Assembly: GCF_040436345.1 (NCBI RefSeq)
Contig: NC_133232.1
Location: 25,512,315-25,576,314 of the forward strand
From: Pagrus major
Taxonomy: Eukaryota > Chordata > Actinopteri > Spariformes > Sparidae
DNA: 64,000 bases
Direction of reading: 5' to 3'
The notes under the pieces are model-generated. The model did not search any database. It was given only the letters and a program-made list of their open reading frames with translations, and was not told the origin of the DNA. The translations under genes and the position numbers were made by a program. This document shows, piece after piece, positions 23,973 through 63,206 of the stretch. Positions within the stretch are counted from its first letter, which is position 1; each line of letters begins with the position of its first letter.

Positions 23973-23986
23973 CCACAAGAGGGCGC
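23973..23986 (+). promoter_or_regulatory. CTCF motif, forward orientation
   Basis: CCACAAGAGGGCGC is a near-perfect CTCF core, lying in GC-rich sequence. It sits between the C-type gene and the array, where an insulator or loop anchor would be expected. Confidence 0.55.
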
Positions 23987-24048
23987 GTCCAACACGACTA
24001 AATGAAAACTGGTGCAGTATGTTAGACTGAATGTTTTGGAGGCACACG

Positions 24049-30067: not shown

Positions 30068-30087
30068 TCTGCCACAAGGTGCCACTG
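30068..30087 (+). promoter_or_regulatory. Weak CTCF-like element upstream of array gene 1
   Basis: CCACAAGGTGCCAC departs from the CTCF core at two positions and lacks the GCGCTG box of the other array promoters. It sits 225 bases before the start of gene 1. No REST-like block follows. It may be a diverged conserved element or chance. Confidence 0.3.
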
Positions 30088-32910: not shown

Positions 32911-33027
32911 ATCTGCAAAGTGTGGCGCTGTTTACTCTAAAAAATACCGGGCCTCGAAAGCAATGACGGTGAATCTTTGTTCGTGGGGCAGCGATAGAAA
33001 AAACGGACAGCTCCGTGGTGCTGAAAC
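32911..33027 (+). promoter_or_regulatory. Promoter of array gene 2: CTCF-type element plus REST-like block
   Basis: TGTGGCGCTGTTTACTC at 32,921 carries the GCGCT box of protocadherin conserved sequence elements. Starting 79 bp after that box, ACAGCTCCGTGGTGCTGAA (within 33,004-33,027) contains, on the minus strand, the exact REST left half TTCAGCACCACGG. Between them lies CAATGACGGTGAAT, a relative of the GCCATGACAG block found in the other promoters. The CTCF role is established for the family; the REST reading is inference. Confidence 0.65.
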
Positions 33028-33148
33028 TCGCAGCGATGACAAGCACCACCATTTCGCTCTTTATTCAGACGGCATCTCCTTGGGATTTAAATCGCAACAG
33101 TGTGTTTTGATCGAGATCTTAAAGGCAATTTTACACATCAGCGGGAAG

Positions 33149-33166
33149 ATGCATTATATCGGCTGA
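33149..33166 (+). promoter_or_regulatory. Short upstream ORF in the gene 2 leader
   Basis: ATG-CAT-TAT-ATC-GGC-TGA ends 49 bases before the main ATG. An equivalent mini-ORF occurs at the same place before gene 4, and longer or shorter variants occur before genes 3 and 6. A damping role in translation is inference. Confidence 0.4.
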
Positions 33167-33215
33167 AGTGCCTCGAACAGTGAATACCCACACAACAATA
33201 GGGTCCGCTGCAACC

Positions 33216-35603
33216 ATGCAATCGCACACAAGGTACGTGGCGCTCATTGTTCTTTTTTCTATCGTTTATCATACATATGCTTCGGTGACTCACTACTCCA
33301 TACCGGAGGAAATGAAAGAAGGATCAGTCGTTGCAAACCTTGCGACAGATCTCAGCCTGGATGTTAAAACACTGAATCAGAGGAAGATGCGTCTGGACAT
33401 AATCGCTAATAAAAAATATGTGGATGTGAACAAAGAGACTGGTGAACTGTATATTGTGGAGAAAATTGACAGAGAACATTGCCCCACGAAGATGTCAGCA
33501 TCGTGCTATCTCAAGCTCGAGGTAATACTTGAAAATCCATTAAGAATCTTTAATATAGAGCTGGAGATTCTGGATATTAACGACAACGCCCCGCAATTTC
33601 GAAGAGATGCAATACATTTGGATATATCAGAAGCAACGCCCATTGGAGAAAGATTCTCTTTGAGCAATGCAGTTGATCCTGACATTGGGACCAATTCAGT
33701 TAAGACATATGATTTAAGTGAAAGTGAACATTTTAATATTGAAGTTCAGACAGGAAGAGATGGGTCCAAGTTTGCTGATTTGATTTTGACAAAGACTTTA
33801 GATCGGGAGCAAAAAGCTGTTCATAATTTAATACTAACAGCTGTAGATGGAGGACGGCCAGCTAGATCTGGCACTGCAAGTGTTATTGTTCACGTTTTAG
33901 ACACAAATGATAACGCACCCACATTTGACAAAGTAAGTTACAACATTGAAATAATGGAAAATTCTCCCATTGGAAGTCTTGTTGTTCATCTCAATGCAAC
34001 AGATTTAGATGAGGGGTCAAATTCTGATATAACATACTCATACAGTTTATATACGTCAGAGAAAACACAAGAAACATTCAATCTGAATCCTATCACGGGT
34101 GAAATTACAGTAAAGGGGGTGTTGAACTATGAAGATTTCAAAATTTATGATATGGAAGTGATAGCCACTGATAAAGGAGCCAATAGTTTGTCAGGACAAT
34201 GTACAATAAAGATTATTGTTGAAGACATGAACGACAACCACCCAGAAATATCTATTAAATCATTTCAGAGTCCAGTCAATGAGAACATAGAATTAGACAC
34301 AGTGATAGCTGTAGTTAGTGTCAGTGATAAAGACTCAGGAGACAATGGAGTGGTGGATCTTCATATTCCAGATAATATGCCTTTCAAACTGAGGGAGTCC
34401 TCTGATAACTATTATGAATTAGTGGTGTCAGAGCCGCTAGACCGTGAGAAGGTTCCAGAGTATGACGTCACTTTCACCGTCACAGACAGAGGTTCACCTC
34501 CTTTATCTGACAATGAAACTATGACGTTAGAGCTGCTGGATGTTAATGACAATGTTCCACAGTTCCCTCAGTCATTTTATACTATACGTGTCATGGAGAA
34601 TAACGCACCTGGGGCCCTGCTCAGCTCACTCACTGCGTTTGACCCTGACCTCCATGAAAACCAGTATCTAGTTTATTTCATCCTAGAGAAGGAGGTAGCC
34701 AACACCTCCATGTCCATGCTGTTCTCCATCAATCCAGAGAACGGGAATCTTTACGCACTCAAAACTTTTGACTATGAGATCGAGAAGGAGTTTCTTTTCC
34801 ACATCGAGGCCAGAGACTCTGGCTCTCCTCCTCTCAGCAGTAACGTCACCGTCCACATCATCATTGTGGACCAGAACGACAACGCTCCGGTCATTGTGTC
34901 TCCGTGGCGCGCACACGGCTCTGTGGTGGAGGAAAAGATCCCCAGATCCACCGATAAAGGCTCTCTGGTTGCCAAGGTGATAGCCTTAGACACCGACTCG
35001 GTGCACAACTCTCGGATTACCTACCAGTTTCTACAGGTGACTGACGCCACCTTGTTCAGTCTGGACCAATACAACGGAGAGATCCGGACTATGAGGATGT
35101 TCAGTTACAGAGATCCGCGCCACCAGAGACTGGTTGTTATTGCCAAGGACAACGGGGAGCCTGCTCTCTCTGCTACAGTCACCATCAAGCTGTCCACAGT
35201 GGAGACTGCTGTTAAGGCCTACTCTGACCTGACTGAGGTGCCTCTAGAATACGACATCTTCTCGGACCTCAACCTGTATTTGGTCATCGGTCTGGGCTCA
35301 GTGTCTTTTCTCCTGCTCATCACCATATTGGTCACCATCGTGCTCAAGTGTCAGACACCCAAGCCCAGCAAAGCGGCTCCTCCCTGCAGGAACAGTTTGC
35401 TCAGTGAGAGGAACTCCACCATTGCAGACTCCACTCTGGTCTCCAACGATGCCTACTGGTACAGTCTGTTTCTAGCAGAGACCAGGAAAGGGAAGATGGT
35501 GGTCAGACAGCCTGTGCCAAAGGGCTCCAGATACATCGTGTCCAGTATACCGAGAGGCACAGGGCTGACAGACACTAGTGACTCAGCAGCTTCTACTCTG
35601 CAG
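33216..35603 (+). CDS. Gamma-type protocadherin variable exon, gene 2
   Basis: 796 codons from ATG 33,216 (MQSHTRYVALIVLFSIVYHT, signal peptide) to CTG-CAG before GTAAGA. An upstream frame extension begins only at GTG 33,168. The EC1 loop is CX7C (PTKMSAS) and is preceded by DREHC, two residues shorter than the DREYLC of its neighbours. From about the start of EC3 ([20 protein letters not shown]) to the exon end it is almost identical to genes 3-7 and 9. It keeps private residues in EC2 (ATPIGERF, DPDIGTNSVKTYDLSE). The intron sequence after its donor is shared with that after gene 5, marking an older duplication. Confidence 0.94.
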
Positions 35604-35813
35604 GTAAGAGTGTAGTTTGCATTTGGTTTTAATTCTACATTTTCTAAACTGAAGTGGCATTTTATACTGTATCGTAGAAATTGTGAGATTACAAATACTA
35701 AATCAGTCTGATGGTTCTATTCTGCAACCTCTGCAAAAACATCGTTCAAACTCCACTTTAAATGTATAAATTGCACTGTAAAGTGCTCATGCCAAACACA
35801 GAGTGTTTAAAAA

Positions 35814-35924
35814 TGCAAAAGGTGGCGCTGTTCTCTTGTTAAAAAACAGGCAATGGCCGCCATGACAGTAAATTTTGTCATTCGGGCAGTTTGAAGAAAC
35901 GGGACAGCTCCGTGGTGCTGAAAC
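35814..35924 (+). promoter_or_regulatory. Promoter of array gene 3: CTCF-type element plus REST-like block
   Basis: GCAAAAGGTGGCGCTGTTC at 35,815 is among the best CTCF-like elements of the array. GCCGCCATGACAG follows at about 35,856. The GGGACAGCTCCGTGGTGCTG block lies at 35,901, 76 bp after the GCGCTG box. The start codon is about 160 bp further on. Confidence 0.68.
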
Positions 35925-36037
35925 GCAACGACGACAACGCGACCGCCCGTTTTGTGCGCAAATATATCACCTGGATTAAAATCACACAACTATGCCTTAG
36001 ACCAGGGCCGGAAGTATAAACTTGGATATATTTGGAA

Positions 36038-36067
36038 ATGTGCGTTATATTGGCTGAACTGCCGTGA
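36038..36067 (+). promoter_or_regulatory. Short upstream ORF in the gene 3 leader
   Basis: ATG-TGC-GTT-ATA-TTG-GCT-GAA and two more sense codons before TGA, ending 14 bases before the main ATG. In gene 6 the same ORF is cut short by TAA after six codons (44,730-44,750). Confidence 0.4.
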
Positions 36068-36081
36068 ACCTACTCACAACA

Positions 36082-38490
36082 ATGGGGTCCTTTGTAACAA
36101 TGCATTCTTGTAAAAGGTACGTGCTGCTCGTTTTTCTCCTTTCTTTCGTTCGTAACATATCGTCTTCAGTGACTCATTATTCAATACCAGAGGAGATGAA
36201 AGAAGGATCAGTTGTCGCAAACCTTGCTACAGATCTCAGTCTGGATGTTAAAGCACTGAATCAGAGGAAGATGCGTCTGGACATCATTGCAAATAAGAAA
36301 TATCTGGACGTGAACAAAGAGACTGGGGAGCTGTATATAGTGGAGAAGATAGACAGAGAATACCTTTGCCCGACAAAATCATCAACGTCTTGTTACCTCA
36401 AACTAGAAGTAATATTAGAAAATCCGCTACGAATTTTTAATATTGAAGTAGAAATTTTGGATATGAACGACAACGCCCCACAGTTTCGACGAGACGCCAT
36501 TCATTTAGATATTTCTGAAGCGACGCCAAAGGGAGAGAGATTCTCTCTGAGCAATGCAGTTGATCCTGATGTTGGAAGCAATTCAGTGAAAACATACCAT
36601 CTGAGTGACAGTGAACATTTTAATATTGAGGTGCAGACCGGAAGAGATGGGTCAAAATTTGCCGAATTAATCTTAACAAAGGCTTTAGATCGAGAGCAGC
36701 AAGCTGTTCATAATTTAGTGCTCACAGCTGTAGATGGAGGCACACCTGCTCGTTCAGGTACTGCAAGTGTTATAGTTCATGTTTCAGACACTAATGATAA
36801 TGCTCCTACATTTGACAAAGTCAGTTATAATATAAAGATAATGGAAAATTCTCCCATTGGAAGTCTCGTTGTTCATCTCAATGCAACAGATTTAGATGAG
36901 GGGTCAAATTCTGATATAACATACTCATACAGTTTATATACGTCAGAGAAAACACAAGAAACATTTCATCTGAATCCTTCCACTGGTGAAATCACTGTTA
37001 AAGGAATGTTAAATTATGAAGATTTCAAAATTTATGATATGGAAGTGATAGCCACTGATAAAGGAGCCAATAGTTTGTCAGGACAATGTACAATAAAGAT
37101 TATTGTTGAAGACATGAACGACAACCACCCTGAAATATCTATTAAATCATTTCAGAGTCCAGTCAATGAGAACATAGAATTAGACACAGTGATAGCTGTA
37201 GTTAGTGTCAGTGATAAAGACTCAGGAGACAATGGAGTGGTGGATCTTCGTATTCCAGATAATATGCCTTTCAAACTGAGGGAGTCCTCTGATAACTATT
37301 ATGAATTAGTGGTGTCAGAGCCGCTAGACCGTGAGAAGGTGCCAGAGTATGACGTCACGTTCACCGTCACAGACAGAGGTTCTCCTCCTTTATCTGACAA
37401 TGAAACTATGACGTTAGAGCTGCTGGATGTTAATGACAATGTTCCACAGTTCCCTCAGTCATTTTATACTATACGTGTCATGGAGAATAACGCACCTGGG
37501 GCCCTGCTCAGCTCACTCACTGCGTTTGACCCTGACCTCCATGAAAACCAGTATCTAGTTTATTTCATCCTAGAGAAGGAGGTAGCCAACACCTCCATGT
37601 CCATGCTGTTCTCCATCAATCCAGAGAACGGGAATCTTTACGCACTGAAAACTTTTGACTATGAGATCGAGAAGGAGTTTCTTTTCCACATCGAGGCCAG
37701 AGACTCTGGCTCCCCTCCTCTCAGCAGTAACGTCACCGTCCACATCATTATTGTGGACCAGAACGACAACGCTCCGGTCATTGTGTCTCCGTGGCGCGCA
37801 CACGGCTCTGTGGTGGAGGAAAAGATCCCCAGATCCACCGATAAAGGCTCTCTGGTGGCCAAGGTGATAGCCTTAGACACAGACTCGGTGCACAACTCTC
37901 GGATTACCTACCAGTTTCTACAGGTGACTGACGCCACCTTGTTCAGTCTGGACCAATACAACGGAGAGATCCGGACTATGAGGATGTTCAGTTACAGAGA
38001 TCCGCGCCACCAGAGACTGGTTGTTATTGCCAAGGACAACGGGGAGCCTGCTCTCTCTGCTACAGTCACCATCAAGCTGTCCACAGTGGAGACTGCTGTT
38101 AAGGCATACTCTGACATGACTGAGGTACCTCTAGAATACGACATCTTCTCAGACCTCAACCTGTATTTGGTCATCGGTCTGGGCTCGGTGTCTTTTCTCC
38201 TGCTCATCACCATATTGGTCACCATCGTGCTCAAGTGTCAGACACCAAAGCCCAGCAAAGCGGCTCCTCCCTGCAGGAACAGTTTGCTCAGTGAGAGGAA
38301 CTCCACCATCGCAGACTCCACTCTGGTTTCCAACGATGCCTACTGGTACAGTCTGTTTCTAGCAGAGACCAGGAAAGGGAAGATGGTGGTCAGACAGCCT
38401 GTGCCAAAGGGCTCCAGATACATCGTGTCCAGTATACCGAGAGGCACAGGGCTGACAGACACTAGTGACTCAGCAGCTTCTACTCTGCAG
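36082..38490 (+). CDS. Gamma-type protocadherin variable exon, gene 3
   Basis: 803 codons, starting MGSFVTMHSCKRYVLLVFLL. A second in-frame ATG at 36,100 aligns with the only ATG of gene 2 and is an alternative start. The signal peptide ends near NISS. The EC1 loop is CX7C (PTKSSTS). The 5' end and leader closely match gene 6, at a constant offset of 8,690 bases, so the two are duplicates. EC2 and beyond follow the homogenised pattern, with only scattered private residues (TKALDREQQAVHNLVL). The donor is GTAAGAGTCC, and the intronic open frame after it is not coding. Confidence 0.94.
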
Positions 38491-38709
38491 GTAAGAGTCC
38501 ACTGTAGACATTTATTGCTGTTCTTTTCAAATTATGTAGTTTAATGTCCTCTTCAAAATATTTATGGTTGCAACATTCAGCTACATAGCTGGATAATTTG
38601 CTAAACTGTGTTACTGTAAGCAGCAAAAGCAGCTGTGTTTAATCTTAAACTCATTTTTAGTTTGAGGTTTCCTGGGTAGTGTAAGCTTTAAGTGTAGCAT
38701 CTGGTAATA

Positions 38710-38824
38710 TGCAAGGAGTGGCGCTGTTTACTCCAAAACATACCAGCCCATGAACGTCATGACACTGAATCTTAGTCAGCGAGGCAGACATTGAAACAAC
38801 CGGACAGCTCCGTGGTGCTGAAAC
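38710..38824 (+). promoter_or_regulatory. Promoter of array gene 4: CTCF-type element plus REST-like block
   Basis: GCAAGGAGTGGCGCTGTTTA around 38,711-38,730 is the conserved element. GTCATGACACTGAAT follows. CGGACAGCTCCG and TGGTGCTGAAAC begin at 38,801, 80 bp after the GCGCTG box. The block is closest to that of gene 2. Confidence 0.66.
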
Positions 38825-38942
38825 TCGCAGCAGCGTCAAGCAGCAATTAGCTTTTATTTGCGACTAAATCTTGTTGGGATTTTAACTGCAGAAAAATGTT
38901 TTGATCGAGGGCTGAAAGGAAATTTTTTACATCAGCGGAAAC

Positions 38943-38960
38943 ATGTACTATATCGGCTGA
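38943..38960 (+). promoter_or_regulatory. Short upstream ORF in the gene 4 leader
   Basis: ATG-TAC-TAT-ATC-GGC-TGA, one residue different from the gene 2 mini-ORF and at nearly the same distance before the main ATG. Confidence 0.4.
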
Positions 38961-38991
38961 AGCGCCTCAAACCGTGAACCCGCACACAACA

Positions 38992-41391
38992 ATGGGGTCC
39001 TTCTTGACAATGCAGTCATACAAAAGGTACGTGTGCGTCGTACTTATTTTATTCGTTCGTAACATATCGTCTTCAGTGACTCATTATTCAATACCAGAGG
39101 AGATGAAAGAAGGATCAGTTGTCGCAAATCTTGCTACAGATCTCAGTCTGGATGTTAAAACACTGAATCAGAGGAAGATGCGTCTGGACATCATTGCAAA
39201 TAAGAAATATCTGGACGTGAACAAAGAGACTGGGGAGCTGTATGTTGTGGAGAAGATTGACAGAGAGTATCTTTGCAACACAAAATCATCTTGCTATCTG
39301 AAACTGGAAGTAATATTAGAAAATCCACTACGAATTTTTAATATTGAAGTAGAAATTCTGGATATGAACGACAACGCCCCACAATTTCGACGAGACGCCA
39401 TACATTTAGATATTTCTGAAGCAACACCGAAAGGAGAGAGATTCTCTCTGAGCAATGCAGCTGATCCTGATGTTGGAACTAATTCAGTGAAAACATACCA
39501 TCTGAGTGAGAGTGAACATTTTAATATTGAAATTCAGACCGGAAGAGATGGCTCGAAGTTTGCCGAATTAATCTTAGAAAAGACTTTAGATCGAGAGCAG
39601 CAAGCTGTTCATAATTTAATACTCACAGCTGTAGATGGAGGCACACCTGCTCGTTCAGGTACTGCAAGTGTTATTGTTCATGTTTCAGACACGAATGATA
39701 ATGCTCCTACATTTGACAAAGTCAGTTATAACATAAAAATAATGGAAAATTCTCCCATTGGAAGTCTCGTTGTTCATCTCAATGCAACAGATTTAGATGA
39801 GGGGTCAAATTCTGATATAACATACTCATACAGTTTATATACGTCAGAGAAAACACAAGAAACATTTCATCTGAATCCTTCCACTGGTGAAATCACTGTT
39901 AAAGGAATGTTAAATTATGAAGATTTCAAAATTTATGATATGGAAGTGATAGCCACTGATAAAGGAGCCAATAGTTTGTCAGGACAATGTACAATAAAGA
40001 TTATTGTTGAAGACATGAATGACAACCACCCTGAAATATCTATTAAATCATTTCAGAGTCCAGTCAATGAGAACATAGAATTAGACACAGTGATAGCTGT
40101 AGTTAGTGTCAGTGATAAAGACTCAGGAGACAATGGAGTGGTGGATCTTCGTATTCCAGATAATATGCCTTTCAAACTGAGGGAGTCCTCTGATAACTAT
40201 TATGAATTAGTGGTGTCAGAGCCGCTAGACCGTGAAAAGGTTCCTGAGTATGACGTCACTTTCACCGTCACAGACAGAGGTTCTCCTCCTTTATCTGACA
40301 ATGAAACTATGACGTTAGAGCTGCTGGATGTTAATGACAATGTTCCACAGTTCCCTCAGTCATTTTATACTATACGTGTCATGGAGAATAACGCACCTGG
40401 GGCCCTGCTCAGCTCACTCACTGCGTTTGACCCTGACCTCCATGAAAACCAGTATCTAGTTTATTTCATCCTAGAGAAGGAGGTAGCCAACACCTCCATG
40501 TCCATGCTGTTCTCCATCAATCCAGAGAACGGGAATCTTTACGCACTGAAAACTTTTGACTATGAGATCGAGAAGGAGTTTCTTTTCCACATCGAGGCCA
40601 GAGACTCTGGCTCTCCTCCTCTCAGCAGTAACGTCACCGTCCACATCATTATTGTGGACCAGAACGACAACGCTCCGGTCATTGTGTCTCCGTGGCGCGC
40701 ACACGGCTCTGTGGTGGAGGAAAAGATCCCCAGATCCACCGATAAAGGCTCTCTGGTTGCCAAGGTGATAGCCTTAGACACCGACTCGGTGCACAACTCT
40801 CGGATTACCTACCAGTTTCTACAGGTGACTGACGCCACCCTGTTCAGTCTGGACCAATACAACGGAGAGATCCGGACTATGAGGATGTTCAGTTACAGAG
40901 ATCCGCGCCACCAGAGACTGGTTGTTATTGCCAAGGACAACGGGGAGCCTGCTCTCTCTGCTACAGTCACCATCAAGCTGTCCACAGTGGAGACTGCTGT
41001 TAAGGCATACTCTGACATGACTGAGGTACCTCTAGAATACGACATCTTCTCAGACCTCAACCTGTATTTGGTCATCGGTCTGGGCTCGGTGTCTTTTCTC
41101 CTGCTCATCACCATATTGGTCACCATCGTGCTCAAGTGTCAGACACCAAAGCCCAGCAAAGCGGCTCCTCCCTGCAGGAACAGTTTGCTCAGTGAGAGGA
41201 ACTCCACCATCGCAGACTCCACTCTGGTCTCCAATGATGCCTACTGGTACAGTCTGTTTCTAGCAGAGACCAGGAAAGGGAAGATGGTGGTCAGACAGCC
41301 TGTGCCAAAGGGCTCCAGATACATCGTGTCCAGTATACCGAGAGGCACAGGGCTGACAGACACTAGTGACTCAGCTGCTTCTACTCTGCAG
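38992..41391 (+). CDS. Gamma-type protocadherin variable exon, gene 4
   Basis: 800 codons from ATG 38,992 (MGSFLTMQSYKRYVCVVLIL) to CTG-CAG before GTAAGA. The signal peptide is shorter than in gene 3. The EC1 loop is CX5C (NTKSS). In EC2 it reads NAADPDVG where most members have NAVDPDVG, and EIQTGRDG where neighbours have EVQTGRDG. Apart from these and ILEKTLDREQQ, it is nearly indistinguishable from gene 3 in the mature protein. The signal peptide and the cysteine loop are thus the main distinguishing parts. Confidence 0.94.
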
Positions 41392-41617
41392 GTAAGAGTG
41401 GATTATAGATATTTGTTTTCATATGTGCAATTTATCAACGATTAGTGTCATTTTGTGTGATACTAATTTTTTTTAGGTTAGTCGGATTTAAAAGTAAAGC
41501 TCATAAATAATGTCAATACATGACATTAGTCTTGTCAGGAAAAGTCAATTTAAACTTACATTGATATGAATAAAATATTTTTATTGAGCATGATGTTAAA
41601 TGCACCTAAAAGGGTCC

Positions 41618-41738
41618 TGCAAAACTAAAGGGTGGCGCTGTTTTGTCAGTAAAATGCCAGCCCATGAACGCCATGACAGTGAAACGTTGTGATCGAGGGC
41701 AGAACGCGAAACAGCCGGACAGCTCCGTGGTGCTGAAC
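41618..41738 (+). promoter_or_regulatory. Promoter of array gene 5: CTCF-type element plus REST-like block
   Basis: ACTAAAGGGTGGCGCTGTTT lies around 41,625-41,644. GCCATGACAGTGAAA follows at about 41,670. CGGACAGCTCCG and TGGTGCTGAAC begin at 41,716, 81 bp after the GCGCTG box. Confidence 0.66.
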
Positions 41739-41890
41739 ATCTACACTGAAAACGCGCTCCTCTTTTTAGCGCAGAAACGTCGACGGGATTGAGATTTTGT
41801 GATCTTTGGGATTACGATCTTTACAACAAAATTCAATATTACCGGAAACGTGAGGAATTTCGTTTGAAAACAGTGGACCCACACACAACA

Positions 41891-44293
41891 ATGGGGTCTG
41901 ATGTAACAATGGAGTATTGCAAAAGGTACGTGCTGCTCCTTTTTCTTCTTTCTTTCGTACGCAACATATCGTCTTCAGTGACTCATTATTCAATACCAGA
42001 GGAGATGAAAGAAGGATCAGTTGTCGCAAACCTTGCTACAGATCTCAGTCTGGATGTTAAAGCACTGAATCAGAGGAAGATGCGTCTGGACATCATTGCA
42101 AATAAGAAATATCTGGACGTGAACAAAGAGACTGGTGAACTGTATATTGTGGAGAAGATAGACAGAGAATATATTTGCCCTGCAAAGTCGTCTTGCTACC
42201 TTAGACTGGAGGTAACACTTGAGAATCCAGTACGAATTTTTAATATTGAAGTAGAAATTTTGGATATGAACGACAACGCCCCACAGTTTCGAAGAGACGT
42301 CATTCATTTAGATATTTCTGAAGCGACGCCGAAAGGAGAGAGATTTTCTCTGAGTAATGCTGTTGATCCTGATGTTGGAACTAATTCAGTGAAAACATAT
42401 CATCTGAGTGAAAGCGATTTTTTTAATATTGAAGTTCAGACCGGAAGAGAAGGGTCGAAGTTTGCCGATTTGATCTTAGAAAAGACTTTAGATCGAGAGC
42501 AGCAAGCTGTTCATAATTTAATACTCACAGCTGTAGATGGAGGCACACCTGCTCGTTCAGGGACTGCAAGTGTTATTGTTCGAGTTTTGGACACTAATGA
42601 TAATGCTCCTACATTTGACAGAGTCAGTTATAATATAAAAATAATGGAAAATTCTCCCATTGGAAGTCTTGTTGTTCATCTCAATGCAACAGATTTAGAC
42701 GAGGGGTCAAATTCTGATATAACATACTCATACAGTTTATATACGTCAGAGAAAACACAAGAAACATTTCATCTGAATCCTTCCACTGGTGAAATCACTG
42801 TTAAAGGAATGTTAAATTATGAAGATTTCAAAATTTATGATATGGAAGTGATAGCCACTGATAAAGGAGCCAATAGTTTGTCAGGACAATGTACAATAAA
42901 GATTCTTGTTGAAGACATGAACGACAACCACCCAGAAATATCTATTAAATCATTTCAGAGTCCGGTCAATGAGAACATAGAATTAGACACAGTGATAGCT
43001 GTAGTTAGTGTCAGTGATAAAGACTCAGGAGACAATGGAGTGGTGGATCTTCGTATTCCAGATAATATGCCTTTCAAACTGAGGGAGTCCTCTGATAACT
43101 ATTATGAATTAGTGGTGTCAGAGCCGCTAGACCGTGAGAAGGTTCCAGAGTATGACGTCACTTTCACCGTCACAGACAGAGGTTCACCTCCTTTATCTGA
43201 CAATGAAACTATGACGTTAGAGCTGCTGGATGTTAATGACAATGTTCCACAGTTCCCTCAGTCATTTTATACTATACGTGTCATGGAGAATAACGCACCT
43301 GGGGCCCTGCTCAGCTCACTCACTGCGTTTGACCCTGACCTCCATGAAAACCAGTATCTAGTTTATTTCATCCTAGAGAAGGAGGTAGCCAACACCTCCA
43401 TGTCCATGCTGTTCTCCATCAATCCAGAGAACGGGAATCTTTACGCACTGAAAACTTTTGACTATGAGATCGAGAAGGAGTTTCTTTTCCACATCGAGGC
43501 CAGAGACTCTGGCTCTCCTCCTCTCAGCAGTAACGTCACCGTCCACATCATCATTGTGGACCAGAACGACAACGCTCCGGTCATCGTGTCTCCGTGGCGC
43601 GCACACGGCTCTGTGGTGGAGGAAAAGATCCCCAGATCCACTGATAAAGGCTCTCTGGTTGCAAAGGTGATAGCCTTAGACACCGACTCGGTGCACAACT
43701 CTCGGATTACCTACCAGTTTCTACAGGTGACTGACGCCACCCTGTTCAGTCTGGACCAATACAACGGAGAGATCCGGACTATGAGGATGTTCAGTTACAG
43801 AGATCCGCGCCACCAGAGACTGGTTGTTATTGCCAAGGACAACGGGGAGCCTGCTCTCTCTGCTACAGTCACCATCAAGCTGTCCACAGTGGAGACTGCC
43901 GTTAAGGCCTACTCTGACATGACTGAGGTGCCTCTAGAATACGACATCTTCTCGGACCTCAACCTGTATTTGGTCATCGGTCTGGGCTCGGTGTCTTTTC
44001 TCCTGCTCATCACCATATTGGTCACCATCGTGCTCAAGTGTCAGACACCCAAGCCCAGCAAAGCGGCTCCTCCCTGCAGGAACAGTTTGCTCAGTGAGAG
44101 GAACTCCACCATCGCAGACTCCACTCTGGTCTCCAACGATGCCTACTGGTACAGTCTGTTTCTAGCAGAGACCAGGAAAGGGAAGATGGTGGTCAGACAG
44201 CCTGTGCCAAAGGGCTCCAGATACATCGTGTCCAGTATACCGAGAGGCACAGGGCTGACAGACACTAGTGACTCAGCTGCTTCTACTCTGCAG
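41891..44293 (+). CDS. Gamma-type protocadherin variable exon, gene 5
   Basis: 801 codons from ATG 41,891 (MGSDVTMEYCKRYVLLLFLL). A further 34 codons are open upstream, but only from a TTG, so I exclude them. The EC1 loop is CX5C (PAKSS). EC2 has the private run SESDFFNIEVQTGREGSKFA, with FF replacing the usual EHF. The donor is GTAAGA, and the first 60 or so intronic bases match those after gene 2. This is the upstream edge of the 8,690-bp duplication that also links genes 3 and 6. Confidence 0.94.
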
Positions 44294-44505
44294 GTAAGAG
44301 TGTAGTTTGCATTTGGTTTTAATTCTACATTTTCTAAACTGAAGTGGCATTTTATATTGTATCGTAGAAATTTTAAGATTACAAATTTTAAATCAGTCTG
44401 ATGATTATCTTCAATAAACATCTACGAAAAATATCGTTGTAAATCCACTTTAAATGTATAAATTGCACTGCAAAGTGCTTCTGTCAACCACAGAGTGTTT
44501 CAAAA

Positions 44506-44616
44506 TGCAAAAGGTGGCGCTGTTCTCTTGTTAAAAAACAGGCAATGGCCGCCATGACAGGGAATTTTGTCATTCGGGCAGTTTGAAGGAACGGGACAGC
44601 TCCGTGGTGCTGAAAC
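44506..44616 (+). promoter_or_regulatory. Promoter of array gene 6: CTCF-type element plus REST-like block
   Basis: GCAAAAGGTGGCGCTGTTC, the same element as gene 3, at about 44,507. GCCGCCATGACAGGG follows. GGGACAGCTCCGTGGTGCTG is at 44,593, 76 bp after the GCGCTG box. The spacing is identical to gene 3, as expected of a duplicate. Confidence 0.68.
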
Positions 44617-44729
44617 GCAACGACGACAACGCGACCGCCTGTTTTGTGCGCATATATATCACCTGGATTAAAACCATAAGATTATGCCTTAGACCAGGGC
44701 CGGAAGTATAAACTTGGATATATTTGGAA

Positions 44730-44750
44730 ATGTGCGTTATATTGGCTTAA
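44730..44750 (+). promoter_or_regulatory. Short upstream ORF in the gene 6 leader
   Basis: ATG-TGC-GTT-ATA-TTG-GCT-TAA. A point change relative to gene 3 converts GAA context into TAA and shortens the ORF to six codons. It ends 21 bases before the main ATG. Confidence 0.4.
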
Positions 44751-44771
44751 GTGCCGTGAACCTATACAACA

Positions 44772-47180: not shown

Positions 47181-47409
47181 GTATGAACAAAGTTATAATT
47201 TCTTCTGTACTTTCTAGTGTTTACTATCATTTAACTTGCCATATACCGAGTGATGGCATTAAGAGTATAACGTTATTTAACAAAGGTTTAGCCAAACAAC
47301 ATAACTCCTTTCAAAAATATCTGCAGCAGTCAAACACGTTGACTTCAGATTTCAACTTTTACAACCTGATCACTCTTAAAATGTGCCTCACTTGTAACAT
47401 ATTTCCCTG

Positions 47410-47530
47410 CAATTTGCGAAAAGGGGCGCTGTTTACTCGAAAAAATCCTAACCCACGGTCGCCATGACAGGGAAGCGTTGTAAAAACTGCAGAGCTCCGA
47501 AAAGCCGGACAGCTCCGCGGTGCTGAAACT
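47410..47530 (+). promoter_or_regulatory. Promoter of array gene 7: CTCF-type element plus REST-like block
   Basis: GCGAAAAGGGGCGCTGTTTA lies around 47,415-47,434. GTCGCCATGACAGGGAA follows. CGGACAGCTCCG and CGGTGCTGAAAC begin at 47,506, 80 bp after the GCGCTG box. The REST-like left half has one mismatch (CCGCGG instead of CCGTGG). Confidence 0.64.
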
Positions 47531-47690
47531 CACACGAAAGGCGACGTCGCCGTTTTGCGCGTCCAAATCTTCATGGAATAAAATTTTCATCAATACGCGC
47601 GGACGGATATCTTAAACGCAAATTTGTAAATCAGTGGATATATTCTTTACATGGACTAATGTGCTTTACGCGGTGAACAGAAGAACGATA

Positions 47691-50096
47691 ATGCCGTCCG
47701 ATGTAACAATGCATTCGTGGACAAGGTACGTGTCGCTTGTTATTCTCGTGTCATTCGTTCCTCATGTAACTGGCTCAGTGACTCATTATTCAATACCAGA
47801 GGAGATGAAAGAAGGATCAGTTGTCGCAAACCTTGCTACAGATCTCAGTCTGGATGTTAAAACACTGAATCAGAGGAAGATGCGTCTGGACATCATTGCA
47901 AATAAGAAATATCTGGACGTGAACAAAGAGACTGGGGAGCTGTATATTGTGGAGAAGATTGATAGAGAATACCTTTGTACCAAAACGCTGACACTGTGCT
48001 ACTTAAAAATGGAAGTAATACTGGAAAACCCGGTGAGAATTTTTAATATAGAAGTAGAAATTTTGGATATGAACGACAACGCCCCACAGTTTCGACGAGA
48101 CGTCATTCATTTAGATATTTCTGAAGCGACACCTAAAGGAGAGAGATTCTCTCTGAGCAATGCAGTTGATCCTGATGTTGGAAGCAACTCAGTGAAAACA
48201 TACCATCTGAGTGAAAGTGAACATTTTAATATTGAGGTGCAGACAGGAAGAGATGGGTCTAAATTTGCCGAATTGATCTTAACAAAGACTTTAGATCGAG
48301 AGCAGCAAGCTGTTCATAATTTAATACTCACAGCTGTAGATGGAGGCACACCTGCTCGTTCAGGGACTGCAAGTGTTATTGTTCGAGTTTTGGACACTAA
48401 TGATAATGCTCCTGCATTTGACAAAGTCAGTTATAATATAAAAATAATGGAAAATTCTCCCATTGGAAGTCTCGTTGTTCATCTCAATGCAACAGATTTA
48501 GATGAGGGGTCAAATTCTGATATAACATACTCATACAGTTTATATACGTCAGAGAAAACACAAGAAACATTTCATCTGAATCCTTCCACTGGTGAAATCA
48601 CTGTTAAAGGAATGTTAAATTATGAAGATTTCAAAATTTATGACATGGAAGTGATAGCCACTGATAAAGGAGCCAATAGTTTGTCAGGACAATGTACAAT
48701 AAAGATTCTTGTTGAAGACATGAACGACAACCACCCAGAAATATCTATAAAATCATTTCAGAGTCCAGTCAATGAGAACATAGAATTAGACACAGTGATA
48801 GCTGTAGTTAGTGTCAGTGATAAAGACTCAGGAGACAATGGAGTGGTGGATCTTCATATTCCAGATAATATGCCTTTCAAACTGAGGGAGTCCTCTGATA
48901 ACTATTATGAATTAGTGGTGTCAGAGCCGCTAGACCGTGAGAAGGTTCCAGAGTACGACGTCACTTTCACCGTCACAGACAGAGGTTCACCTCCTTTATC
49001 TGACAATGAAACTATGACGTTAGAGCTGCTGGATGTTAATGACAATGTTCCACAGTTCCCTCAGTCATTTTATACTATACGTGTCATGGAGAATAACGCA
49101 CCTGGGGCCCTGCTCAGCTCACTCACTGCATTTGACCCTGACCTCCATGAAAACCAGTATCTGGTTTATTTCATCCTAGAGAAGGAGGTAGCCAACACCT
49201 CCATGTCCATGCTGTTCTCCATCAATCCAGAGAACGGGAATCTTTACGCACTGAAAACGTTTGACTATGAGATTGAGAAGGAGTTTCTTTTCCACATCGA
49301 GGCCAGAGACTCTGGCTCTCCTCCTCTCAGCAGTAACGTCACTGTCCACATCATTATTGTGGACCAGAACGACAACGCTCCGGTCATCGTGTCTCCGTGG
49401 CGCGCACACGGCTCTGTGGTGGAGGAAAAGATCCCCAGATCCACTGATAAAGGCTCTCTGGTTGCCAAGGTGATAGCCTTAGACACAGACTCGGTGCACA
49501 ACTCTCGGATTACCTACCAGTTTCTACAGGTGACTGACGCCACCTTGTTCAGTCTGGACCAATACAACGGAGAGATCCGGACTATGAGGATGTTCAGTTA
49601 CAGAGATCCGCGCCACCAGAGACTGGTTGTTATTGCCAAGGACAACGGGGAGCCTGCTCTCTCTGCTACAGTCACCATCAAGCTGTCCACAGTGGAGACT
49701 GCCGTTAAGGCCTACTCTGACATGACTGAGGTGCCTCTAGAATACGACATCTTCTCAGACCTCAACCTGTATTTGGTCATCGGTCTGGGCTCGGTGTCTT
49801 TTCTCCTGCTCATCACCATATTGGTCACCATCGTGCTCAAGTGTCAGACACCCAAGCCCAGCAAAGCGGCTCCTCCCTGCAGGAACAGTTTGCTCAGTGA
49901 GAGGAACTCCACCATCGCAGACTCCACTCTGGTCTCCAACGATGCCTACTGGTACAGTCTGTTTCTAGCAGAGACCAGGAAAGGGAAGATGGTGGTCAGA
50001 CAGCCTGTGCCAAAGGGCTCCAGATACATCGTGTCCAGTATACCGAGAGGCACAGGGCTGACAGACACTAGTGACTCAGCTGCTTCTACTCTGCAG
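47691..50096 (+). CDS. Gamma-type protocadherin variable exon, gene 7
   Basis: 802 codons from ATG 47,691 (MPSDVTMHSWTRYVSLVILV). The upstream open extension begins with GTG and is excluded. A two-codon upstream ORF (ATG-GAC-TAA) lies at 47,651. The signal peptide differs from those of genes 3-6 (SFVPHVTGSVTHYS). The EC1 loop is CX6C (TKTLTL). The rest is the homogenised type, with NDNAPAFDK at the EC2/EC3 border. The donor is GTAAAT. The whole exon, leader and introns recur without a seen difference as gene 9. Confidence 0.94.
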
Positions 50097-50420
50097 GTAA
50101 ATTAATTCAATTTCATTACCAAATTATTTTTTTTTAACTTAATCAAAATCACTTTCAGAAACCGCCATTCTCTTGTGTCTTCCCCGGTCCAGCAGTTGTG
50201 AAAATGACATGTTAAAAAAAGAAGAAACATGAACAGGGATTTGGTATTAAGGTGACTCACAAAAAAAAATGATGTTCCAAATCTTCAATCCAAAAAAAGA
50301 AATCTTGGTGCAGAATCCAGTTCAAATTATAACAGTTTAAACATCACTTTCATTCATTTCAAATCAATTCGACGTTGTTATAACCTCCATGCAAATATAA
50401 TCATGCATAAACGCTTTTTT

Positions 50421-50548
50421 CTGCATTTTAGCGTCGCTGTTCCCCAGTAAAACATCCTTATTGGTGACTTTATAGGCGCCATGACAGTGTCTCATCTGGA
50501 GACAGACCGGACAGCAACAAAAGCAGGGTGGACAGCTCCCGGTGCTTA
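50421..50548 (+). promoter_or_regulatory. Promoter of array gene 8: CTCF-type element, decayed REST-like block
   Basis: TTTTAGCGTCGCTGTTCC around 50,427-50,444 keeps the CGCTGTT core but has a TCGCT instead of GCGCT box. GGCGCCATGACAGTG follows at about 50,475. The second block is GTGGACAGCTCCCGGTGCTT at about 50,528, 94-96 bp downstream. It is one base short and mismatched in the REST-like half. Confidence 0.55.
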
Positions 50549-50699
50549 ACAGGCTCTAATGGATTTATTTCGCGTGTATTTGTCTTAATCCAGCATCCTT
50601 TTATGATCAACGTCATCACAGTATATTACCTTTGCCTTTTTTCTCTGCTTCATCTGAACTGACTCACTGAAAAGGGAACATTTTATTAGCGGCGTAACA

Positions 50700-53105
50700 A
50701 TGCACATGCCTAACACTGGGGATTCTTGGAGGAGGTATGTGTCTGCGCTTTTGTTTATCGGTGCGTTTGTGAACACGGTTATTGCCGTTACCCATTATTC
50801 TGTACCCGAAGAATTAGAGGAAGGGTCGGTTGTGGCCAATTTGGCTTCTGATTTAGATTTAGACGTGAAGACTCTGAGTAAGCGGCAGATGCGGTTAGAC
50901 ATTATATCCAGCAAAAGATACCTGGATGTGAACAAAGACACAGGGGAGCTTTACATCGTTGAGAGGATCGACAGAGAGTACCTCTGTGCAGTGAAGACAA
51001 CGACATGTTTCCTGAAAATGGAGGCCATTGTGGAGAACCCGCAAAGAATATTTTATATCGAAATTGAAATAACGGATATCAATGATAACCCTCCTCACTT
51101 TCGACGAGACACCATAAACTTGGACATTATGGAATCAACCCCAGCTGGTGAGAGATTCTCTGTTAATAACGCTGTGGATCCAGATCTAGGATCAAACTCC
51201 GTTAAAACATACCTTCTGAGCGAAAATGAGCACTTTGACATAGAAATTCAAACCGGAAGAGACGGATCCAAATTTGCTGATTTAATATTAAAGAAGGGTT
51301 TGGACCGAGAAAAGCAAGCAGTGCACAGTTTAATACTGACTGCTGTGGACGGCGGAGTCCCCACTCGCACTGGAACGGCCAGTATCATTGTTCGTGTGCT
51401 AGATACTAATGACAACGCCCCAACCTTCGTCAAAGATAATTATGACGTTAATATTATGGAAAATTCTCCTGTTGGAAGTCTTGTTCTGAAGCTGAATGCT
51501 ACAGATTTAGACGAGGGGACAAATGCACAGATCGAATATACATATAGTCTGTACACATCCGAAAAAACACAAGGGACATTTAACCTGAATCCATCCACAG
51601 GCGAAATAACAGTGAAGGGAATGCTAAATTATGAAGATATTCGGAATTATGAAATGGAAATTATAGCGACGGATAAAGCAGTCAATAGTTTATCAGGGCA
51701 GTGCAAAGTAAAGATTTCTGTAGCAGATATGAATGATAATCATCCAGAAATATCAATCAAATCATTTCAGAGTCCGATCAAAGAAAATGAGCCAATAGAC
51801 ACAGTGATAGCTGTAGTTAGTGTCAGTGATAAAGACTCAGGAGACAATGGAGTGGTGGATCTTCATATTCCAGATAATATGCCTTTCAAACTGAGGGAGT
51901 CCTCTGATAACTATTATGAATTAGTGGTGTCAGAGCCGCTAGACCGTGAGAAGGTTCCAGAGTATGACGTCACTTTCACCGTCACAGACAGAGGCTCTCC
52001 TCCTTTATCTGACAATGAAACTATGACGTTAGAGCTGCTGGATGTTAATGACAATGTTCCACAGTTCCCTCAGTCATTTTATACTATACGTGTCATGGAG
52101 AATAACGCACCGGGGGCCCTGCTCAGCTCACTCACTGCGTTTGACCCTGACCTCCATGAAAACCAGTATCTAGTTTATTTCATCCTAGAGAAGGAGATTG
52201 TCAACACCTCCATGTCCATGCTGTTCTCCATCAATCCAGAGAACGGGAATCTTTACGCACTGAAAACTTTTGACTATGAGATCGAGAAGGAGTTTCTTTT
52301 CCACATCGAGGCCAGAGACTCTGGCTCTCCTCCTCTCAGCAGTAATGTCACCGTCCACATCATTATTGTGGACCAGAACGACAACGCTCCGGTCATCGTG
52401 TCTCCGTGGCGCGCACACGGCTCTGTGGTGGAGGAAAAGATCCCCAGATCCACCGATAAAGGCTCTCTGGTGTCCAAGGTGATAGCCTTAGACACCGACT
52501 CGGTGCACAACTCTCGGATTACCTACCAGTTTCTACAGGTGACTGACGCCACCTTGTTCAGTCTGGACCAATACAACGGAGAGATCCGGACTATGAGGAT
52601 GTTCAGTTACAGAGATCCGCGCCACCAGAGACTGGTTGTTATTGCCAAGGACAACGGGGAGCCTGCTCTCTCAGCGACAGTCACCATCAAGCTGTCCACA
52701 GTGGAGACTGCCGTTAAGGCCTACTCTGACATGACTGAGGTGCCTCTAGAATACGACATCTTCTCGGACCTCAACCTGTATTTGGTCATCGGTCTGGGCT
52801 CGGTGTCTTTTCTCCTGCTCATCACCATATTGGTCACCATCGTGCTCAAGTGTCAGACACCCAAGCCCAGCAAAGCGGCTCCTCCCTGCAGGAACAGTTT
52901 GCTCAGTGAGAGGAACTCCACCATCGCAGACTCCACTCTGGTCTCCAACGATGCCTACTGGTACAGTCTGTTTCTAGCAGAGACCAGGAAAGGGAAGATG
53001 GTGGTCAGACAGCCTGTGCCAAAGGGCTCCAGATACATCGTGTCCAGTATACCGAGAGGCACAGGGCTGACAGACACTAGTGACTCAGCAGCGTCTACTC
53101 TGCAG
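50700..53105 (+). CDS. Gamma-type protocadherin variable exon, gene 8 (recombinant 3' end)
   Basis: 802 codons from ATG 50,700 (MHMPNTGDSWRRYVSALLFI, signal peptide). The EC1 loop is CX6C (AVKTTT). EC1-EC3 are clearly different from genes 2-7 (VTHYSVPEELEEGSVV, FVKDNYDVNIMENSPVGSLV), so it represents another lineage. It joins the common sequence from DTVIAVVSVSDKDSG in EC4 onward. Its last stretch, codons TCA-GCA-GCG-TCT and donor GTATGAAC, is that of gene 6 rather than of its own duplicate gene 10. It is thus a fusion made by the tandem duplication. The protein is unaffected, because the exchanged part encodes the same residues. Confidence 0.93.
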
Positions 53106-53334
53106 GTATGAACAAAGTTATAATTTCTTCTGTACTTTCTAGTGTTTACTATCATTTAACTTGCCATATACCGAGTGATGGCATTAAGAGTATAACGTTA
53201 TTTAACAAAGGTTTAGCCAAACAACATAACTCCTTTCAAAAATATCTGCAGCAGTCAAACACGTTGACTTCAGATTTCAACTTTTACAACCTGATCACTC
53301 TTAAAATGTGCCTCACTTGTAACATATTTCCCTG

Positions 53335-53455
53335 CAATTTGCGAAAAGGGGCGCTGTTTACTCGAAAAAATCCTAACCCACGGTCGCCATGACAGGGAAG
53401 CGTTGTAAAAACTGCAGAGCTCCGAAAAGCCGGACAGCTCCGCGGTGCTGAAACT
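53335..53455 (+). promoter_or_regulatory. Promoter of array gene 9 (copy of the gene 7 promoter)
   Basis: Identical to the gene 7 promoter at offset 5,925: the GGGGCGCTG element, GCCATGACAGGGAA, then the CGGACAGCTCCG block with one REST-half mismatch. Confidence 0.64.
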
Positions 53456-53615
53456 CACACGAAAGGCGACGTCGCCGTTTTGCGCGTCCAAATCTTCATG
53501 GAATAAAATTTTCATCAATACGCGCGGACGGATATCTTAAACGCAAATTTGTAAATCAGTGGATATATTCTTTACATGGACTAATGTGCTTTACGCGGTG
53601 AACAGAAGAACGATA

Positions 53616-56021
53616 ATGCCGTCCGATGTAACAATGCATTCGTGGACAAGGTACGTGTCGCTTGTTATTCTCGTGTCATTCGTTCCTCATGTAACTGGCT
53701 CAGTGACTCATTATTCAATACCAGAGGAGATGAAAGAAGGATCAGTTGTCGCAAACCTTGCTACAGATCTCAGTCTGGATGTTAAAACACTGAATCAGAG
53801 GAAGATGCGTCTGGACATCATTGCAAATAAGAAATATCTGGACGTGAACAAAGAGACTGGGGAGCTGTATATTGTGGAGAAGATTGATAGAGAATACCTT
53901 TGTACCAAAACGCTGACACTGTGCTACTTAAAAATGGAAGTAATACTGGAAAACCCGGTGAGAATTTTTAATATAGAAGTAGAAATTTTGGATATGAACG
54001 ACAACGCCCCACAGTTTCGACGAGACGTCATTCATTTAGATATTTCTGAAGCGACACCTAAAGGAGAGAGATTCTCTCTGAGCAATGCAGTTGATCCTGA
54101 TGTTGGAAGCAACTCAGTGAAAACATACCATCTGAGTGAAAGTGAACATTTTAATATTGAGGTGCAGACAGGAAGAGATGGGTCTAAATTTGCCGAATTG
54201 ATCTTAACAAAGACTTTAGATCGAGAGCAGCAAGCTGTTCATAATTTAATACTCACAGCTGTAGATGGAGGCACACCTGCTCGTTCAGGGACTGCAAGTG
54301 TTATTGTTCGAGTTTTGGACACTAATGATAATGCTCCTGCATTTGACAAAGTCAGTTATAATATAAAAATAATGGAAAATTCTCCCATTGGAAGTCTCGT
54401 TGTTCATCTCAATGCAACAGATTTAGATGAGGGGTCAAATTCTGATATAACATACTCATACAGTTTATATACGTCAGAGAAAACACAAGAAACATTTCAT
54501 CTGAATCCTTCCACTGGTGAAATCACTGTTAAAGGAATGTTAAATTATGAAGATTTCAAAATTTATGACATGGAAGTGATAGCCACTGATAAAGGAGCCA
54601 ATAGTTTGTCAGGACAATGTACAATAAAGATTCTTGTTGAAGACATGAACGACAACCACCCAGAAATATCTATAAAATCATTTCAGAGTCCAGTCAATGA
54701 GAACATAGAATTAGACACAGTGATAGCTGTAGTTAGTGTCAGTGATAAAGACTCAGGAGACAATGGAGTGGTGGATCTTCATATTCCAGATAATATGCCT
54801 TTCAAACTGAGGGAGTCCTCTGATAACTATTATGAATTAGTGGTGTCAGAGCCGCTAGACCGTGAGAAGGTTCCAGAGTACGACGTCACTTTCACCGTCA
54901 CAGACAGAGGTTCACCTCCTTTATCTGACAATGAAACTATGACGTTAGAGCTGCTGGATGTTAATGACAATGTTCCACAGTTCCCTCAGTCATTTTATAC
55001 TATACGTGTCATGGAGAATAACGCACCTGGGGCCCTGCTCAGCTCACTCACTGCATTTGACCCTGACCTCCATGAAAACCAGTATCTGGTTTATTTCATC
55101 CTAGAGAAGGAGGTAGCCAACACCTCCATGTCCATGCTGTTCTCCATCAATCCAGAGAACGGGAATCTTTACGCACTGAAAACGTTTGACTATGAGATTG
55201 AGAAGGAGTTTCTTTTCCACATCGAGGCCAGAGACTCTGGCTCTCCTCCTCTCAGCAGTAACGTCACTGTCCACATCATTATTGTGGACCAGAACGACAA
55301 CGCTCCGGTCATCGTGTCTCCGTGGCGCGCACACGGCTCTGTGGTGGAGGAAAAGATCCCCAGATCCACTGATAAAGGCTCTCTGGTTGCCAAGGTGATA
55401 GCCTTAGACACAGACTCGGTGCACAACTCTCGGATTACCTACCAGTTTCTACAGGTGACTGACGCCACCTTGTTCAGTCTGGACCAATACAACGGAGAGA
55501 TCCGGACTATGAGGATGTTCAGTTACAGAGATCCGCGCCACCAGAGACTGGTTGTTATTGCCAAGGACAACGGGGAGCCTGCTCTCTCTGCTACAGTCAC
55601 CATCAAGCTGTCCACAGTGGAGACTGCCGTTAAGGCCTACTCTGACATGACTGAGGTGCCTCTAGAATACGACATCTTCTCAGACCTCAACCTGTATTTG
55701 GTCATCGGTCTGGGCTCGGTGTCTTTTCTCCTGCTCATCACCATATTGGTCACCATCGTGCTCAAGTGTCAGACACCCAAGCCCAGCAAAGCGGCTCCTC
55801 CCTGCAGGAACAGTTTGCTCAGTGAGAGGAACTCCACCATCGCAGACTCCACTCTGGTCTCCAACGATGCCTACTGGTACAGTCTGTTTCTAGCAGAGAC
55901 CAGGAAAGGGAAGATGGTGGTCAGACAGCCTGTGCCAAAGGGCTCCAGATACATCGTGTCCAGTATACCGAGAGGCACAGGGCTGACAGACACTAGTGAC
56001 TCAGCTGCTTCTACTCTGCAG
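53616..56021 (+). CDS. Gamma-type protocadherin variable exon, gene 9 (duplicate of gene 7)
   Basis: 802 codons, same protein as gene 7 throughout, including the TKTLTL cysteine loop. ATG 53,616 and donor GTAAAT after 56,021 correspond base for base. If both copies are real, they would specify the same recognition identity and act as a dosage or promoter-choice doublet. Confidence 0.92.
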
Positions 56022-56345
56022 GTAAATTAATTCAATTTCATTACCAAATTATTTTTTTTTAACTTAATCAAAATCACTTTCAGAAACCGCCATTCTCTTG
56101 TGTCTTCCCCGGTCCAGCAGTTGTGAAAATGACATGTTAAAAAAAGAAGAAACATGAACAGGGATTTGGTATTAAGGTGACTCACAAAAAAAAATGATGT
56201 TCCAAATCTTCAATCCAAAAAAAGAAATCTTGGTGCAGAATCCAGTTCAAATTATAACAGTTTAAACATCACTTTCATTCATTTCAAATCAATTCGACGT
56301 TGTTATAACCTCCATGCAAATATAATCATGCATAAACGCTTTTTT

Positions 56346-56473
56346 CTGCATTTTAGCGTCGCTGTTCCCCAGTAAAACATCCTTATTGGTGACTTTATAG
56401 GCGCCATGACAGTGTCTCATCTGGAGACAGACCGGACAGCAACAAAAGCAGGGTGGACAGCTCCCGGTGCTTA
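56346..56473 (+). promoter_or_regulatory. Promoter of array gene 10 (copy of the gene 8 promoter)
   Basis: Identical to the gene 8 promoter at offset 5,925, with the TCGCTGTT element and the shortened second block. Confidence 0.55.
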
Positions 56474-56624
56474 ACAGGCTCTAATGGATTTATTTCGCGT
56501 GTATTTGTCTTAATCCAGCATCCTTTTATGATCAACGTCATCACAGTATATTACCTTTGCCTTTTTTCTCTGCTTCATCTGAACTGACTCACTGAAAAGG
56601 GAACATTTTATTAGCGGCGTAACA

Positions 56625-59722: not shown

Positions 59723-59823
59723 CACAAAGCGTCGCTCTTTACCACCAAGAAATACGTCTTTGTGACGCAACCGTGGCCAGACAGTGGTTGAAAGAACAGA
59801 TCAGCCATTTCTGGACAGCTCCC
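59723..59823 (+). promoter_or_regulatory. Promoter of array gene 11: diverged element
   Basis: CAAAGCGTCGCTCTTTACC around 59,725-59,743 is a diverged conserved element. TGGACAGCTCCC at 59,812 keeps only the first half of the second block, 81 bp downstream. The REST-like left half is absent. Confidence 0.5.
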
Positions 59824-63183: not shown

Positions 63184-63206
63184 TTCTCATGTCGCTGTTC
63201 TCCACA
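63184..63206 (+). promoter_or_regulatory. Promoter element of array gene 12
   Basis: TCATGTCGCTGTTCTCCAC contains the CGCTGTTC core of the conserved element, with a TCGCT box as in genes 8 and 10. I find no convincing second block between here and the start codon. Confidence 0.45.

Follow-up and report, generated by a model that had tools for sequence, protein, structure and literature searches.

A near-fixed, RE1-like promoter block with an inverted right half in a clustered protocadherin array of Pagrus major: a putative convergent REST/NRSF element

The window, i.e., the whole stretch of 64,000 nucleotides of Pagrus major DNA analysed here, is part of a clustered protocadherin locus, where gene 0 (16244-18796) is followed by an array of single-exon genes, all on the plus strand. 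Pfam Cadherin and Cadherin_C_2 domains are present in all three exons that were scanned. Across 264 kb (20 stretches) there are 45 variable exons, and three more stretches add a further 7. By tail and position, the genes fall into gene 0, array A (genes 1-13, which holds the block described below), array B (g14-34), and array C (g35-50); g14 was assigned to array B by position, and g51 differs from array C. Shortly after gene 0, at 21285, is a sequence similar to constant exon 1 (PN.DW; PNTDW), which is the only match in the 264 kb, and the plus strand of the three added stretches contains none. Since this lone constant-exon-like sequence follows gene 0, the latter may represent a delta-type unit with a single gene.

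The promoters of genes 2-13 have a GGCGCT or (C/T)GTCGCT box at -208 to -292, the feature that marks a Clustered protocadherin promoter. This CGCT-type box belongs to the CSE, which binds CTCF, and CpG methylation in the box precludes binding (PMC7811963); zebrafish alpha-type promoters are described as lacking the CGCT box (PMC4978886). When genes 2-13 were scanned with a 15-bp CTCF consensus, allowing at most two mismatches and with no chance control, matches were limited to the boxes of genes 3 and 6 (35815 and 44507); the same consensus also matched before gene 1, at 30072. From the box towards the start codon, the promoter elements are ordered as the CGCT-type box, an A-rich stretch, the short sequence CGCCATGAC, and then a 21-bp block with the sequence GGACAGCTCC-GT-GGTGCTGAA, present in the promoters of genes 2-7 and 9. 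The elements have the following positions:

32924..32932, plus strand, CGCT-type box (CSE) of gene 2, 9-mer GGCGCTGTT
Starts at 35824, 38720, 41634, 44516, 47425 and 53350, the same 9-mer GGCGCTGTT in genes 3-7 and 9
Starts at 50432, 56357 and 59730, CGTCGCT box of genes 8, 10 and 11
Start at 63190, TGTCGCT box of gene 12
50477-50485, CGCCATGAC of gene 8; starts at 35858, 41669, 44550, 47460, 53385 and 56402 in the other promoters with an exact copy
33005..33025, minus strand, putative convergent RE1 of gene 2 (ATG 33216), GGACAGCTCC-GT-GGTGCTGAA on the plus strand, with the left half TTCAGCACC read on the minus strand
35902..35922, minus strand, putative convergent RE1 of gene 3 (ATG 36082)
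38802..38822, minus strand, putative convergent RE1 of gene 4 (ATG 38992)
41717..41737, minus strand, putative convergent RE1 of gene 5 (ATG 41891)
44594..44614, minus strand, putative convergent RE1 of gene 6 (ATG 44772), in a promoter near-identical to that of gene 3
47507..47527, minus strand, putative convergent RE1 of gene 7 (ATG 47691), with the spacer GC instead of GT
50530..50549, minus strand, gene 8 (ATG 50700), right half GGACAGCTCC, 1-bp spacer, and left half with one change, TTAAGCACC
53432..53452, minus strand, putative convergent RE1 of gene 9 (ATG 53616), duplicate of the gene 7 copy
56455..56474, minus strand, gene 10 (ATG 56625), duplicate of the gene 8 copy
59813..59822, plus strand, gene 11 (ATG 59952), right half alone, 83 bp from the start of the CGTCGCT box

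The original prediction described an exact block in genes 2-6, one mismatch in genes 7 and 9, a decayed copy in genes 8 and 10, only the first half in gene 11, and nothing in genes 1 and 12, and in these respects it agrees with our count. The 19-mer ACAGCTCCGTGGTGCTGAA has five exact copies and two with one mismatch in the window, all on the plus strand and all seven upstream of a Pcdh variable exon, and no further match with up to three mismatches exists within the window; a shuffled window has on average 0.01 copies. A search of the whole genome (786 Mb, 25 contigs, with the window on contig 18) returned the same five exact copies and none on the other strand. The left half TTCAGCACC, claimed as an exact REST left half on the minus strand, is indeed exact in the seven full copies out of ten promoters with a whole or partial block; it has one change in genes 8 and 10 and is absent in gene 11. 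The right half GGACAGCTCC is kept in all ten promoters of genes 2-11, and in gene 11 it stands alone. Genes 1, 12, and also 13 have nothing convincing, with best matches of 10-11/21, and a matrix scan likewise found no block there.

The distance between box and block is nearly constant. From the start of GGCGCTG to the start of GGACAGC it is 81, 78, 82, 83, 78, 82, and 82 bp in genes 2-7 and 9, and overall 78-83 bp in eight of the ten genes; the predicted range was 76-81 bp, and the difference reflects the choice of anchor. In genes 8, 10, and 11, the anchor used was CGTCGCT, one base upstream of that in the remaining genes, and with this anchor the single right half of gene 11, at 83 bp, is in register. 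The copies in genes 8 and 10 lie at 98 bp from the box, where 94-96 bp had been claimed, and a second GGACAGC is found at 77 bp; in gene 8, an additional right-half-like sequence, GGACAGCAAC, is located 21 bp upstream. Two smaller regularities were seen in the same promoters. The sequence CGCCATGAC is a second conserved piece between box and block, exact in genes 3 and 5-10. A CAG is positioned 15-18 bp before the right half in all ten promoters of genes 2-11; it could be a relic of the left half of a gapped site, and the bases after it fit the REST left half poorly.

The number of independent copies is smaller than the number of genes. Genes 7-8 and 9-10 form one duplicated tandem unit of 5.9 kb (47187-59036) with 5922 of 5925 bases identical, which is either a very recent duplication or an assembly artefact, and the promoters of genes 3 and 6 are nearly identical, with 57/60 matches in each flank. 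The seven full blocks therefore correspond to five distinct promoters. Between these, the block is identical at 20-21 of 21 positions in every pair, whereas the ungapped flanks agree at only 12-26 of 60, with one flank of the pair 4/7 reaching 35/60. Across the aligned promoters of genes 2, 3, 4, 5, and 7, conservation is highest in the 21 columns of the block, at 0.98 compared with a median of 0.56 over 316 windows. Fourfold-degenerate sites of EC1-3, in a comparison that left out genes 9 and 10, are 87-94% identical among genes 3-7, 64-67% between gene 2 and genes 3-7, and 27-37% for genes 8 and 11 with genes 2-7 and with each other, which is near saturation. Given the values for genes 3-7, conservation of the full block has been tested over a modest coding distance. 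The right half, on the other hand, is present in the near-saturated genes 8 and 11 and has thus outlasted near-saturating divergence: the longest-kept part of the block is the right half on the plus strand.

These comparisons bear on whether the block could be a leftover of recent gene duplication or conversion that has no function. The Pcdh arrays of fugu are known to undergo regional conversion, and the near-identity of the 7-8 and 9-10 units, the near-copy promoters of genes 3 and 6, and the values at fourfold sites of genes 3-7 would all suit such an origin. Since the identity of the block in the five distinct promoters is far above that of the flanks, and a tract of conversion would be unlikely to end after 21 bp, gene conversion alone is largely refuted, and we regard a leftover of this kind as very improbable. 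The block is real, it is conserved beyond its own flanks among the paralogues, and it is RE1-like with an inverted right half.

The published REST core is TCAGCACCnnGGACAG. The two halves occupy positions 1-9 and 12-21 of the 21-bp motif (PMC9903721). In the block, the REST left half is perfect and the right half matches at 9/10; the two are separated by the canonical 2-bp gap, and the right half is inverted. Scores were calculated with a matrix built from 30 sites beyond array A, at most three mismatches from the consensus; the matrix is circular for canonical sites, and the block was excluded from it. A composite of left half, 2 bp, and inverted right half scores 28.2, compared with a maximum of 14.2 in a 1-Mb first-order Markov background (one strand). 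Scored as a canonical RE1, the block reaches only 11.7 in genes 2-6 and 7.8 in genes 7 and 9, against 28-37 for the 30 matrix-building sites; 3 and 13 of 999980 background positions attain these two values, and the background maximum is 19.0. A canonical RE1 was rejected on the grounds that the score is too low and the right half reversed: it scores -7.1 as placed and 10.9 when inverted, in line with the flipped orientation proposed in the original prediction. The predicted likeness to REST stands for the convergent composite, which lies far above background; read as a canonical RE1, the block exceeds most of the background and scores well below the canonical sites of the cluster.

Half-site pairs in the 264 kb, listed above set thresholds and with spacers of 0-30 bp, number 46. 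The direct pairs comprise 28 at 2 bp and 1 at 8 bp, and the convergent pairs 7 at 2 bp and 2 at 1 bp; of the remaining 8, three join halves of these same blocks to other partners at 21-22 bp and five are scattered. All nine convergent pairs at 1-2 bp lie in array A promoters. Four null sequences contained 0, 0, 3, and 3 pairs, none of them convergent at 1-2 bp. No pair with the 7-9-bp gap of a gapped RE1 exceeded the thresholds used in the array promoters, and a gapped RE1 within the block was rejected, as neither half has a partner at those gaps above thresholds. The halves of the block face each other on opposite strands with a gap within 0-49 bp, the arrangement that defines a convergent non-canonical RE1. 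At the level of sequence, the relation of the block to RE1 is firm.

An alternative is a REST site consisting of the right half only, where GGACAGCTCC on the plus strand is bound and the left half is carried along or assists weakly. Retention of the right half in all ten promoters of genes 2-11, including genes 8 and 11 with their low fourfold identity to genes 2-7, is what this explanation predicts. It leaves unexplained that the left half, too, is unchanged in all seven full copies and is placed exactly at the canonical 2-bp gap, and that 0 of 4000 shuffled promoters contain a left/right pair with a spacer of 0-12 bp in any orientation, at each of two stringencies. We consider a right-half-only site unlikely, though worth keeping in view.

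The symmetry of the block invites two further explanations. The inner 16 bp, CAGCTCC-GT-GGTGCTG, form an inverted repeat with a single mismatch between the 7-bp arms, which another factor or a part of the core promoter could read as a dyad, with REST not involved. The near-fixed place relative to the CSE would suit such a role, as would the failure of convergent RE1s as silencers in a reporter assay described in PMC9903721. Against this, the outer bases that tell the REST halves apart (GGA; AA, read TT on the minus strand) are conserved, where a generic dyad predicts no such conservation, and the explanation has no candidate factor, the motifs scanned being the REST and CTCF consensus only. 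A REST-independent dyad is in our judgement improbable, to a degree similar to the right-half-only site. The near-palindromic core could also form a hairpin in the mRNA, as the block may lie within the transcribed 5' leader. All four promoters that were folded are no better than their shuffles, however (z -0.74, -0.27, -0.19, and +0.71), and the four folds differ, so that an RNA hairpin is mostly refuted and has scarcely any probability left.

We consider the chances about even that the block is a promoter-locked convergent REST/NRSF cis-regulatory element, and the overall interpretation of the original prediction is partly supported. The block probably lies near the transcription start, about 80 bp downstream of the CSE. 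REST would sit on it in non-neural cells and progenitors. According to PMC8096226, REST recognises its two halves in a single orientation, 2 or 7-9 bp apart, and consequently one REST molecule should not hold both halves of the block; REST would instead grip mainly one half at a time, with fingers 3-5 on the right half or fingers 7-8 on the left. It would thereby bring co-repressors beside the CTCF-binding CSE and keep the promoter shut, and in neurons, where REST falls, the promoter would become available for CTCF/enhancer choice. The sequence, its conservation among the paralogues, its arrangement, and its spacing are observed; we infer the binding of REST, the silencing, the nearness to the start site, and any effect on CTCF. 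The main doubts concern the binding of REST, and the fact that silencing through the convergent form is not known for REST.

The convergent form is a named non-canonical class (PMC11025195, PMC9903721), and in human peaks altered gaps are commoner in this class than in the regular form (PMC11025195). PMC9903721 describes a human reporter assay in which 52 convergent-pair sequences with spacers below 100 bp, pooled, gave no significant repression; among the non-canonical configurations, only atypically spaced pairs repressed significantly. In human cells, genes whose REST peaks contain a half-site are reported to be less repressed and more highly expressed than genes with RE1 peaks (PMC4055426). 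Convergent half-sites did not silence in the reporter assay, yet here they make up the most conserved piece of the promoter. Either REST can use the convergent form at promoters, or an element shaped like an RE1 now serves a different factor. Because natural variants (the 2-bp form, the 1-bp form, the right half alone, and promoters with no block) occur beside sister genes with canonical sites, the question is directly testable.

The sister genes belong to the neighbouring arrays, and compared with these array A is the exception. Near-canonical RE1s, defined as having at most three mismatches over 19 or fewer specified positions and lying within 1.2 kb upstream of the ATG, are found in 34 of 38 array B/C genes (28/31 for g14-g44 and 6/7 for g45-g51), all on the minus strand. 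Genes g14, g24, g32, and g51 have none within 1.2 kb upstream; g14 has an RE1 on the plus strand at 1.8 kb. A single RE1 is perfect, at window coordinate 194068. With up to four mismatches, the canonical pattern has 46 matches in 264 kb, including the seven blocks, compared with 1 and 2 in two Markov sequences. Some array C genes carry two near-canonical RE1s, and the sites of arrays B and C together supply a collection of candidate REST sites. In array B, the 9-mer GGTGTCAGT is common to 15 of 21 promoters, about 245 bp before the ATG, and is perhaps a CSE-like element that lacks the CGCT box. The RE1s of arrays B and C lie 249-1036 bp upstream of the ATG, while GGTGTCAGT stays near -245, which means that they have no fixed spacing. 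Descent of the block from these canonical sites, which are upstream at loose distances, is unsupported.

We tentatively propose, with well under even confidence, that each tandem sub-array has its own REST grammar. Array A would rely on convergent RE1s held about 80 bp past each CSE, near the transcription start and readable by REST despite the rule of one direction and gaps of 2 or 7-9 bp, and the following arrays would use canonical RE1s at loose distance. If true, the locked form would couple silencing by REST to the CTCF-binding element separately at each promoter.

One further non-canonical site is present outside the promoters, between gene 0 and gene 1, close to a CTCF match:

23895..23921, minus strand, gapped non-canonical RE1, TTCAGCACC - 8 bp - GGACAGCTCC
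23973..23987, plus strand, match to the CTCF consensus, CCACAAGAGGGCGCG, with 0 mismatches and no chance control, 51 bp after the gapped RE1

The gapped RE1 has the same right-half variant, GGACAGCTCC, as the array A block. The region 23895-23987, between the constant-exon-like sequence of gene 0 and the array, is a candidate distal regulatory element reminiscent of HS5-1. As for the gapped site here, mammalian HS5-1 contains an NRSE with an 8-bp gap (PMC8096226), but its CTCF sites are in reverse orientation (PMC7811963), while the match at 23973..23987 is forward.

REST is a known silencer of clustered protocadherins, and canonical and non-canonical NRSEs occur in the fugu, mouse, and human clusters (PMC3601302). 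The same review, citing Tan et al. 2010, locates the NRSEs of fugu in promoters and those of mammals in coding sequence, and describes ubiquitous expression in tadpoles when the NRSE is deleted from Pcdh constructs. The original prediction held that a gene-by-gene REST half-site locked to the CTCF element would be notable in fish; promoter REST elements of fugu are already published (PMC3601302), so that any novelty would be confined to the convergent form locked in place at the promoters. The literature searched contains no description of convergent RE1s in Pcdh promoters of fish, which is weak evidence of novelty, with most subscription papers outside the search.

Compared with the canonical RE1/NRSE, the block has an identical left half, the same 2-bp gap, and the same total length, and its left half is on the minus strand, as in nearly all canonical sites of the neighbouring arrays. 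It differs in the inverted right half, which reads GGACAGCTCC instead of GGCGCTGTCC on the plus strand, and in its location downstream of the CSE at near-fixed distance, where the neighbours' sites are spread over several hundred base pairs upstream of the ATG. With the convergent non-canonical RE1 it shares REST halves on opposite strands that face each other, but while the gaps of the human class are altered more often than those of the regular form, the block recurs at 2 bp (or 1 bp) in tandem promoters, near-fixed to the CSE. The fugu NRSEs of Tan et al. 2010, as summarised in PMC3601302, resemble it in being REST elements of fish Pcdh promoters, whereas the per-gene REST sites of mammals are in exons (PMC8096226). 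The right half alone, as found in gene 11, has a counterpart within the same gene family in mammalian PCDH-alpha8, which has a right-half-only REST site (PMC8096226).
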